The translations under genes were made by a program, and so were the position numbers. DNA of 51,454 nucleotides. Origin: a virus. Below, piece after piece: positions 14,130-26,090 of this stretch. Numbering within the stretch: the first letter of the stretch is position 1; each line of letters begins with the position of its first letter. The stretch covers positions 1 through 51,454 of IMG/VR virus record IMGVR_UViG_3300034788_000438; one strand, written 5' to 3'. The notes beneath the pieces are model-generated. The model was not told where the DNA came from. It ran no database searches and saw nothing but the letters and a program-made list of their open reading frames with translations.

Positions 14130-14176
14130 CCGGGGTCTCCTTTCGTTTGCGCTCATTCCCTTGTTTTCAAAAGCCC
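14046..14176. repeat. 19-base imperfect inverted repeat
   Basis: The arms are 14046-14064 (GGGTTTTAGAAAACAAGGG) and 14158-14176 (CCCTTGTTTTCAAAAGCCC). They match at 17 of 19 positions, including a perfect 11-base core (GAAAACAAGGG). They enclose 93 bases that contain the start of the 49-codon minus frame. The right arm overlaps the next hairpin by three bases, so the two structures would compete. Confidence 0.6.
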
Positions 14177-14211
14177 CGCGCCGCTGTGTGGGAGGAGAGT
14201 GCGGCGCGGGG
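14174..14211 (-). terminator. strong GC hairpin, possible leftward terminator or processing site
   Basis: CCCCGCGCCGC (14174-14184) pairs perfectly over 11 bases with GCGGCGCGGGG (14201-14211) around a 16-base loop. Read leftward it is followed by CTTTTG, a short T run, so it may end or stabilise the leftward early transcript after the hexamer-repeat gene. On the plus strand no T run follows. Confidence 0.5.
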
Positions 14212-14243
14212 TGGCGGCTAGTCTGATGTGCCGCCGGTGTTGC

Positions 14244-14429
14244 TTATGACCGCGACAGCGACCGCGACAGCGACCACGACCGCGACCACGACCACGACCG
14301 CGACAGCGACCACGACCGCGACAGCGACCACGACCGCGACCACGACAGCGACCACGACAGCGACCACGACCGCGACCGTGACCGCGACCACGACCGATTA
14401 TAACCCTCTGTCAGAATCGCCGCGTTCAT
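14244..14429 (-). CDS. X-Ser dipeptide repeat protein encoded by a hexamer repeat
   Basis: The ATG at 14429 overlaps the stop of the DUF gene (ATGA), so the frame is coupled to it. After an ordinary start (MNAAILTEGYN) the remaining 50 residues are 25 X-Ser dipeptides with X = Arg, Trp or Leu. They are encoded by repeated six-base units of the type [C/T][G/T]G-TCG. A plus-strand Thr/Ala-repeat reading over the same bases has no ribosome site or coupling. The plus-strand module at 25038-25674 has the same arrangement with a Gly-X repeat. Function unknown; the product would be strongly basic, aromatic and probably disordered. Confidence 0.5.
   Translation of the reverse strand: MNAAILTEGYNRSWSRSRSRSWSLSWSLSWSRSWSLSRSWSLSRSWSWSRSWSLSRSLSRS
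14247..14396. repeat. six-base tandem repeat (GACNNC type)
   Basis: About 25 tandem six-base units of GACCGC, GACAGC and GACCAC (plus-strand reading), with single-base variation at fixed positions. It is a microsatellite inside the X-Ser repeat gene and is expected to change length by slippage or recombination. Confidence 0.9.
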
Positions 14430-14767
14430 TTCTGCACCCGATATGTTTTGCCATGCTCAACAGCATCGATAATGGCACCGCGACCAATGATTACCCGACC
14501 CTCTGGAAATGGCTCAATCTCTTTGGGGTCAGCTTTTTCCGTTAGCATGTCGTGAAAACGGCCTGTGTCTGCAATCCATGCAGCGTCTTCCAAGACTATT
14601 TCTTGCGGGGTTACGGACACAACGCGGCCAACGTCAATCATGGTCACGGTGCGGATCAGGTAGATTTTTCCAATCTCCCAAGCGCTGTTGTCCTGCTTTG
14701 GCGCAGATCCAAACATTGCCGCTAGTTCCTTGGCTTCTCCGATAGTCATGCTGTCAAGTTTGCTCAT
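14426..14767 (-). CDS. DUF6948-like protein, copy 1
   Basis: A 113-residue protein whose layout matches the 124-residue protein at 25038-25412. Both begin with a short motif (GEAKELAAMFGSA here, GDLKKIAAMFSGS there). Both continue with a beta-rich part reading as 'I(V)L-R-(T/C)...AG/DVGRV' and a middle Trp/Arg region. I recall this family as DUF6948 in other phages, where it also precedes a Gly-X repeat gene. Function is unknown. The start follows AGGAGAGA. A TGCGACA box lies 66 bases upstream, and the stop overlaps the start of the repeat gene. Confidence 0.55.
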   Translation of the reverse strand: MSKLDSMTIGEAKELAAMFGSAPKQDNSAWEIGKIYLIRTVTMIDVGRVVSVTPQEIVLEDAAWIADTGRFHDMLTEKADPKEIEPFPEGRVIIGRGAIIDAVEHGKTYRVQK

Positions 14768-14826
14768 CTCATTCTCTCCTTGTTACTCTCTCACCCTAAC
14801 CCACACTGTAGGGGTGGGGGGATTGG

Positions 14827-15090
14827 TCATTTTGTCGCAGGTGCGTCGTCTTTATACATATACTCAACTAAAAACTGATCACCTCCGCATAGCATCACTT
14901 GCAAAACAACAATCTCCTGAGCATTCCAGTCAGAAGATATTTTCGGCTTAGTCGTCGAAAATATCCGTTCAGCCAGTTCGGAATTCATGTGAAAGCGAAC
15001 AAATCTGCTTTCCTCGCAACTTTTCACAATAGTTCCAGCAACTGAGTTAAACGAAATGCTTTGATTGTTCCTAACGTTGGCGTCAAACAT
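14827..15090 (-). CDS. 87-residue unknown protein
   Basis: The start at 15090 overlaps the end of the Ref-type nuclease gene. The sequence (MFDANVRNNQSISFNSVAGT...) is a mixed alpha/beta soluble protein with two cysteines (KSCEES, MLCGGD) and no membrane segment. Its last codons (GCG ACA AAA) form the TGCGACA box of the downstream module. I do not recognise the family. Confidence 0.55.
   Translation of the reverse strand: MFDANVRNNQSISFNSVAGTIVKSCEESRFVRFHMNSELAERIFSTTKPKISSDWNAQEIVVLQVMLCGGDQFLVEYMYKDDAPATK
14833..14839 (-). promoter_or_regulatory. TGCGACA box upstream of DUF copy 1
   Basis: The minus strand reads TGCGACA, then AAATGACC and a C-rich run (CCCCCCACCCC) before the start at 14767, 66 bases away. 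The same box and a C-rich run precede 17141 and 22055 in the direction of transcription. It probably marks an early promoter or regulator site. Confidence 0.45.
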
Positions 15091-25037: not shown

Positions 25038-25412
25038 GTGGATATTGATGACATGAAATTGGGCGATCTGAAAAAGATTGCTGCGATGTTTAGCGGAAGT
25101 GGCGATGCGCCAACGTCAAGCGGGTTTGAAGGGCGTTATGTGATTGTTCGCTGCAAAGATGCTGGCGTTCATGCTGGGGTTTTGGTTGCGGATTCGGGGC
25201 GCACGGCAACGCTCAAGGAAAGTCGCCGCCTTTGGTACTGGAAGAGCAATAAAGGGTCATTCCTTAGCGGCGTTGCGCGTGATGGCCTAGACGAAGAAAG
25301 CAAAGTTGGTGGTGAGGTTGATATTCACCTGACCGAGACATGCGAAATCATCCCTTGCAGCGAGATTGCGGAGAAAAGCATTCGAGGAATCAAGGCTCAT
25401 GAGCGCGACTAA
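25038..25412 (+). CDS. DUF6948-like protein, copy 2
   Basis: A 124-residue protein (GTG start, AGGAGAGA upstream) with MKLGDLKKIAAMFSGSGDAP, YVIVRCKDAGVHAGVLVADS, SRRLWYWKSNKGSFLSGVA and LTETCEIIPCSEIAEKSI. I recall this pattern as DUF6948 in phages, where the gene precedes a Gly-X repeat gene. It is related in layout to the shorter protein at 14426-14767. Function is unknown; the beta-rich core suggests a small binding domain. The downstream repeat gene starts 14 bases before its stop. Confidence 0.65.
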   Translation: MDIDDMKLGDLKKIAAMFSGSGDAPTSSGFEGRYVIVRCKDAGVHAGVLVADSGRTATLKESRRLWYWKSNKGSFLSGVARDGLDEESKVGGEVDIHLTETCEIIPCSEIAEKSIRGIKAHERD

Positions 25413-25674
25413 CAAAGGCCACGGCTCCGGCGACGGCTCCGGCGACGGCTACGGCCACGGCCACGGCCACGGCTCCGGCTATGGCTCCGGCCACGGCTAC
25501 GGCTACGGCTACGGCTCCGGCAACGGCTCCGGCGACGGCAACGGCAACGGCCACGGCTACGGACACGGCAACGGCTACGGCTACGGCTCCGGCAACGGCT
25601 ACGGCAACGGCTCCGGCGACGGCGACGGCTACGGCAACGGCTCCGGCGACGGCGACGGCTACGGCTACGGCTAA
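25399..25674 (+). CDS. Gly-X dipeptide repeat protein
   Basis: A 91-residue protein: MSATNK followed by 42 Gly-X dipeptides and a final Gly. X is only Ser, Asp, Tyr, His or Asn. It is encoded by six-base units GGC-NAC or GGC-TCC with almost no synonymous variation. The start overlaps the end of the DUF gene in another frame. The product should be an extended, disordered chain that may bind RNA, DNA or membranes, or act as a sticky surface or phase-separating segment. Its function has not been shown, to my knowledge. Confidence 0.6.
   Translation: MSATNKGHGSGDGSGDGYGHGHGHGSGYGSGHGYGYGYGSGNGSGDGNGNGHGYGHGNGYGYGSGNGYGNGSGDGDGYGNGSGDGDGYGYG
25417..25671. repeat. six-base tandem repeat (GGC-NAC / GGC-TCC)
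   Basis: About 42 consecutive six-base units. Every second codon is Gly (GGC except one GGA). The alternate codon is AAC, GAC, CAC, TAC, TCC or, once, TAT. Length and order are expected to be unstable. Confidence 0.9.
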
Positions 25675-25685
25675 AGGAGGTGATC
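25673..25685 (+). promoter_or_regulatory. extended anti-Shine-Dalgarno match without a gene
   Basis: AAAGGAGGTGATC is complementary over 13 bases to the usual 3' end of 16S rRNA (GATCACCTCCTTT). It begins on the stop codon of the Gly-X gene. No ordinary start codon with an open frame follows; GTG at 25680 reads only V-I-S-I before a stop. A leader for a tiny peptide, ribosome docking or a decoy role is possible. Confidence 0.45.
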
Positions 25686-25700
25686 AGTATCTAAGCCAAA

Positions 25701-25883
25701 GTTACCGGCTGGCAAGCTGGCCGGTGACACCGCTTCTTTGCAGATAGCCCCAGCTTTTTTTTCATAAAGTCGAGTTGTTTGGGGAAACTGCCGGATGATC
25801 CGGTCGGGGCTATCTACATGGGCGCGGCCGCCTGTCCGCCAGAAGTGAGGGTGAATGATATGGTTCACCGACAGGACGCGCCC
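25701..25883 (+). ncRNA. candidate structured RNA of three consecutive hairpins
   Basis: Hairpin 1: GTTACCGGC (25701-25709) pairs with GCCGGTGAC (25720-25728), 9 pairs with one G-U. Hairpin 2: AGATAGCCCC (25742-25751) pairs with GGGGCTATCT (25806-25815), with an inner CCGGAT (25791-25796) / ATCCGG (25798-25803). Hairpin 3: GGGCGCG (25820-25826) / CGCGCCC (25877-25883), then CCTGTC (25831-25836) / GACAGG (25870-25875), then GGTGAA (25850-25855) / TTCACC (25864-25869). An eight-T run lies at 25755-25762. The region has no gene and lies between the Gly-X gene and a small membrane protein whose ribosome site follows it. It could be a regulatory leader or a free RNA. Confidence 0.65.
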
Positions 25884-25904
25884 AACCCATAAGGAGAAGT
25901 TAAC

Positions 25905-26090
25905 ATGAGAGGAAAAAGAGTTATGGCAGCATTGGTTTTTTGGGTGGCAGTTTTGGCAGGATGGTTGACGCACATTGTCGTTGCCATCCAAGCAAAAGCT
26001 TGGGTCTTTATGATTGTTGGAGCATTGCTATCACCAGTGGCTGTTGTTCACGGCTGGTCTGTGTGGCTTGGCTTTGATTGGCTGCATTGA
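25905..26090 (+). CDS. 61-residue two-span membrane protein
   Basis: MRGKRVMAALVFWVAVLAGW leads into two hydrophobic spans (about residues 7-28 and 32-52) with a short Trp-rich end. The ribosome site AAGGAGA follows the structured RNA directly. I recall similar small membrane proteins beside Gly-X repeat genes in other phages, which suggests a functional unit. Role unknown. Confidence 0.55.
   Translation: MRGKRVMAALVFWVAVLAGWLTHIVVAIQAKAWVFMIVGALLSPVAVVHGWSVWLGFDWLH

Follow-up and report, generated by a model that had tools for sequence, protein, structure and literature searches.

Two hexamer arrays stand out in the phage genome analyzed here, and the question is whether each of them forms a functional unit with the small gene in front of it. 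The window, that is the whole stretch of 51,454 nucleotides (IMG/VR record IMGVR_UViG_3300034788_000438), is a tailed-phage genome that carries genes for terminase, head, tail and lysis. No other tandem repeat in these 51 kb comes close to the two arrays (TRF scores 196 and 290; next 41). The preliminary description had reported a small gene followed by an overlapping repeat gene on the minus strand, and the same order with a different hexamer repeat on the plus strand. Both arrangements were confirmed, and the following features were assigned:

14426..14767, minus strand: P0001, 113 aa, predicted type A Sm-like protein of the DUF6948 superfamily (AlphaFold pLDDT 94.0, Foldseek)
14244..14429, minus strand: P0002, 61 aa, X-Ser dipeptide-repeat gene with an ATGA overlap with P0001 (translation)
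14248..14396, minus strand: hexamer array encoding the X-Ser repeats (TRF score 196)
14174..14211, minus strand: GC-rich hairpin with a trailing CUUUU, probably the operon's intrinsic terminator (folding energy, array survey)
25038..25412, plus strand: P0003, 124 aa, predicted type B Sm-like protein, Pfam DUF6948 (Pfam, pLDDT 94.5, Foldseek)
25399..25674, plus strand: (Gly-X)n gene, 91 aa, X = Y, S, D, H, N, overlapping P0003 (translation)
25417..25673, plus strand: hexamer array encoding the Gly-X repeats (TRF score 290)

P0002 consists of the leader MNAAILTEGYN and 25 X-Ser units, in which X is R (10), W (9) or L (6). The gene ahead of the minus-strand repeats had been taken for a DUF6948-like gene and the one on the plus strand for a relative of it. 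Membership of DUF6948 holds for P0003, which scores 91.8 bits against PF22253 (E = 3e-26) and is a member at the curated cut-off of 27 bits, but not for P0001, which has no Pfam match and is kin by fold. Structures were predicted as single chains with AlphaFold2 using 98 (P0001) and 79 (P0003) aligned relatives, the rows of named phages being left out. Both models (pLDDT 94.0 and 94.5) show an N-terminal helix followed by a small, strongly bent five-stranded barrel, as in the Sm fold. In a Foldseek comparison with the PDB the top matches of P0001 were almost all Sm/LSm chains (best E 1.6e-3, TM by target up to 0.83), and the top 50 matches of P0003 were Sm/LSm-type chains (best E 1.5e-2); E-values for types A and B never fell below 1e-3. 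The best viral structure match of P0001 was a DUF6948 protein, and a phage protein labelled 'Sm-like domain' was also among the matches. Because both predicted folds and nearly all PDB fold matches point to Sm/LSm, DUF6948 looks like a phage Sm-like family. Searches at the level of sequence found no Sm/LSm family of Pfam at E<=1 for P0001 and P0003 or at E<=10 for nine relatives, and no match to PDB sequence profiles. In view of this result and of the modest E-values, the claim is a predicted Sm-like fold and not proven membership.

A third family, type C, is homologous to type A (hhalign 97%), and types A and B are connected by fold and weak profile similarity only. Most type B proteins belong to PF22253; types A and C lie outside the Pfam model. 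P0001 contains an Arg-Gly at the turn between strands 4 and 5 (residues 96-97), the position of the Arg-Gly in Sm2, which together with Sm1 forms the RNA-binding loops of Sm proteins; types B and C have no Arg-Gly at this turn. In the sampled cellular genomes Pfam DUF6948 is rare (1/392 and 1/132), so it is mostly a viral gene.

Searching IMG/VR with the two window proteins yielded 80 and 26 loci. A gene was scored as linked when an array of period 6 lay at most 420 nt downstream, and assessable genes were counted. Among these relatives from the protein searches an array was located downstream of 64/69 type A and 27/31 type B genes; in the control, 78/1558 (5%) of the other ORFs of at least 100 aa at the same loci were followed by one. 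Independent scans with a single type C protein and a single distant type B protein as queries gave arrays after 13/16 type C and 44/46 distant type B genes. Several exceptions could be traced: L028 and L026 retain a degenerate Ser-X peptide, L070 and L073 have the array upstream instead, both distant type B genes that lack an array are truncated, and in two of the three exceptional type C cases the SX frame is short or broken. The reverse search, which used scans for the array pattern and counted only loci with enough flank, showed that 75/90 SX and 70/86 GX arrays have an Sm-like gene no more than 1.5 kb away, and revealed type C. Among the named records of phages and other elements with the module are those of Pectobacterium, Iodobacter, Vibrio, Chlorobiaceae, Neisseria and Monoglobus. 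The record of Iodobacter phage phiPLPE lacks an annotation for the Gly-X gene (L109:1173-1410) behind the DUF6948 gene phiPLPE_84.

The arrays are read as protein in a fixed frame. Translation from the start codon closest to where gene 1 ends proceeds in the Ser frame at 86/92 type A and 31/31 type C loci; at type B loci it enters the Gly frame in 74/84 cases. Against a chance of 1/3, p ranges from 6e-34 to 2e-15. A stop in this frame lies near the end of the array in 82/91 (type A), 62/84 (type B) and 30/30 (type C). In the resulting protein Ser alternates with Arg, Trp or Gly where the gene in front is of type A or C, and Gly alternates with Tyr, Ser or Asp where it is of type B. In type A the leader MNAAxLRTGFD is conserved, and the X residues R, W and G account for 38%, 32% and 30% of these three; in type B the X residues are Y, S and D, then N. 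Other frames which resemble known low-complexity proteins (RG, AT/AP, V-X) were rejected, as none is the frame of the coupled start.

The arrays could also work as DNA or RNA, for example as a binding platform, a recombination hotspot or a regulatory repeat, with the frame being incidental. Such a role would fit the observation that within one array the synonymous positions are near-uniform and the variation falls mostly on the first base of the X codon, a uniformity which we attribute to recent copying of the units. It does not fit the coupled start with its frame, nor the stop which follows right after the array in that frame. Serine is encoded by TCN in 79 type A arrays and by AGC/AGT in 12 with the same leader, and this switch requires two base changes in every unit and leaves the peptide unchanged. 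The serine-codon class changed at least 10 times on the tree of 118 Sm-like proteins, compared with 11.6 changes if randomly scattered, and this near-random scatter indicates that the arrays have often been rebuilt or replaced, to the same dipeptide. In the degenerate arrays L028, L026 and L371 only the peptide is preserved: the dipeptide was kept and the periodicity of the DNA was lost, and in L371, from the AT-rich Monoglobus, the Gly codons are free to vary while Gly-X remains constant. Owing to the TCN/AGY switch, the frame and the degenerate arrays the reading as a DNA motif was rejected, and a function of the array as nucleic acid is strongly disfavoured and very improbable. We have little doubt that a conserved two-gene module with a predicted Sm-like fold exists at the level of protein.

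Further architectures were found among the loci. At L118:5864-9011, L161:1629-4084 and L131 many separate tandem Ser-X ORFs with a repeated leader (e.g. MITKRSRWRR) adjoin the Sm-like gene. In one group of distant type B loci (L433, L438, L407 and L420) the Gly-X gene opens with a small conserved folded-looking part, e.g. VTVCDVLDAGACLEGVKKFI, which has no Pfam match, and on the Monoglobus plasmid (L371:3276-4037) Gly-X runs into a C-terminal part of about 160 residues, also with no Pfam match.

How fast the arrays change became visible in close relatives. Ymer and Amona, two Pectobacterium phages, agree at 1000/1000 positions upstream, 399/399 in gene 1 and 900/900 downstream, and yet the array has 222 nt in Ymer and 204 nt in Amona, with a different order of units. 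In eight related Pectobacterium phages the arrays range from 162 to 270 nt, all of them in frame and with few synonymous changes. These genomes were obtained from 300-cycle Illumina runs (PMC11445585), so the inner order of units may suffer from assembly; the differences start at the first units, beside unique sequence. One chromosome of Neisseria gonorrhoeae contains three prophage copies with identity at 479-480/480 positions upstream and 700/700 downstream, and the array of the first copy shows in-frame differences from that of the other two. Two N. gonorrhoeae records of 2.17 Mb, NZ_CP119142.1 and NZ_CP119140.1, are chromosome-sized and filed as plasmids, with three matches to the DUF6948 module each. 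The preliminary description had suggested a conserved small domain that works with an unstable low-complexity partner. Its two expectations, that repeat frames follow most of the DUF6948 and related genes elsewhere and that they stay unbroken in close relatives, were both borne out by the surveys and by the Pectobacterium and Neisseria arrays; that the two products work together is what we infer.

Arrays that differ wholly between Ymer and Amona despite 100% identical flanks are what an arms race predicts. The repeat gene might accordingly encode an independent, fast-evolving product, for example a decoy or a variable antigen directed against host defence, which merely shares the operon. The unrelated folded-looking parts on some array proteins would also agree with this explanation. 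We consider it unlikely, given that the linkage extends over three families, many phage lineages and both directions of the search, that the type of dipeptide tracks the Sm-like family, and that composition is conserved rather than sequence, unlike in an epitope. One fusion of an Sm-like domain with Gly-X speaks against it as well: at L256 a single ORF joins a type B domain to a C-terminal Gly-X tail, and an unfused second copy adjoins. With one fusion among about 250 genes this case may be accidental, because it is single and the stretch is duplicated, with a second, unfused array next to the fusion.

Not all elements of the proposed unit were retained. The TGCGACA box occurs 9 times in the window, compared with 11.35 occurrences expected by chance, and was rejected as a regulatory box because its frequency is at chance level. 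The strong hairpin after the minus-strand array is present (-29.2 kcal/mol, z -3.1, followed by CUUUU), but as a conserved part of the module it had to be dismissed, since terminator-like hairpins follow only 8/203 arrays compared with 2/406 random stretches; in view of this rarity the hairpin at 14174 is most likely simply the terminator of the operon. The two modules had also been regarded as mirror-image duplicates of one unit. They are independent occurrences of one architecture, because only 6/47 phage records with type A also hold a type B gene. An obligate pairing of A and B, including a coacervate of both repeat types, was rejected on account of the same co-occurrence. The roughly 220 nt after the plus-strand array (25672-25890) fold unusually well (z -3.8) and are a possible structured RNA; no Rfam family was matched in the window, this region included. 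Directly after the plus-strand module, at 25905-26090, a small membrane-like protein is encoded (PHROG 7319, E 6e-17).

Both modules of the window are located in early operons for replication and recombination, on the minus strand with an exonuclease, NinB/Orf and HNH and on the plus strand with replication initiation, SSB and methyltransferase genes. In the named records the module is found near RecE/Bet, Erf/SSB, RusA, XerD or a helicase. The charges of the two products are opposite: the median net charge is -2 for type A and -3 for type C Sm-like domains with partners at +11, and +1 for type B domains with partners at -10, although this complementarity amounts to only two independent contrasts (A/C versus B).

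We propose that the module is a two-gene unit for nucleic-acid handling. Gene 1 would encode a phage protein of the Sm/LSm fold (DUF6948 superfamily; families A, B and C) and gene 2 an intrinsically disordered polymer of alternating residues. As the start of gene 2 overlaps the end of gene 1, gene 2 is probably made in step with gene 1. Its product would provide in trans the low-complexity tail which Sm and Hfq proteins carry in cis, and would attach by many weak contacts to the Sm-like core of opposite charge, to nucleic acid, or to both. The pair may thereby gather or gate RNA or ssDNA at early sites of replication or recombination. The arrays would turn over rapidly through slippage of units and recombination, and this would be tolerated because only their composition matters. 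The formation of hexa- or heptameric rings as in Sm/LSm proteins, the binding of nucleic acid, the contact of the two products and a behavior as condensate or gate are all inferred. This mechanism of an Sm-like nucleic-acid-binding core with a disordered, oppositely charged trans partner has in our estimate nearly an even chance of being correct. The folded-looking extras in some array genes (L433, L371) suggest that the repeat protein may have other partners.

The strongly cationic repeat proteins of types A and C would also be compatible with a toxin-antitoxin-like or host-takeover pair, in which an Arg-rich peptide acts as a poison of ribosomes or of RNA metabolism and is held back or delivered by the Sm-like protein. 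Toxicity of Arg-rich dipeptide repeats is known from the C9orf72 setting, and the genes are small and overlapping. The same architecture is found with the type B repeats, which are acidic and rich in Gly, Tyr, Ser and Asp. PADLOC reported no known defence system and a toxin family was not found, and we regard a toxin pair as quite improbable.

If the proposed Sm-like core with its trans partner is true, the pair would be a viral unit of a new kind for handling RNA or DNA. The analysis suggests which fold DUF6948, a domain of unknown function, adopts, and it presents a low-complexity protein that had been regarded as junk-like as a near-obligate partner whose composition, not sequence, is conserved across phages and elements of very different hosts. 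Arrays rebuilt many times from different serine codons provide a natural experiment on selection for composition over sequence. The system is compact and genetically tractable, and lends itself to the question if phages organise nucleic acid with Sm-like proteins and disordered polymers. Array genes are at risk of being scrambled or missed in short-read assemblies and by gene callers, as the unannotated Gly-X gene of phiPLPE illustrates. As a tentative generalization, a viral two-gene class may exist which combines an Sm-fold protein with a separately encoded, constantly turning-over low-complexity partner of complementary charge, and which possibly forms condensates made by the phage where replication or recombination takes place, or RNP particles that have no counterpart in cells; we rate this broader idea as possible, somewhat below the mechanism itself.

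A coupled pair of this kind appears to be undescribed: a literature search for DUF6948 or for an Sm-like/dipeptide-repeat pair found no description. Eukaryotic Sm and LSm proteins carry low-complexity Arg/Gly tails in cis. The phage proteins share with them the predicted fold and a low-complexity tail or partner, but the repeat is Ser-[Arg/Trp/Gly] in place of Arg-Gly in cis, and membership of the phage proteins is without support at the level of sequence. No sequence similarity to Hfq was found. The tail of Hfq is disordered, acidic and C-terminal and binds to the basic rim of the Sm core (PMC5606850). The acidic Gly-X partner of type B may plausibly be modelled on this tail. Hfq differs in that the Hfq tail is in cis and non-repetitive, and phage types A and C have a cationic partner. 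In the Sm proteins of Borgs the repeat is fused to the N-terminus, with units of 4-17 residues, and is present in only 5/19 proteins (PMC9879509). No such N-terminal cis fusion was found in the phages, where the repeat is a separate gene at all loci except L256 with its C-terminal fusion. Both systems combine the Sm fold of a mobile element with a fast-evolving, in-frame disordered repeat under constraint at the protein level; in contrast to the Borg proteins, the repeat of the tailed phages has an overlapping gene of its own, is strictly a dipeptide and is near-universal.
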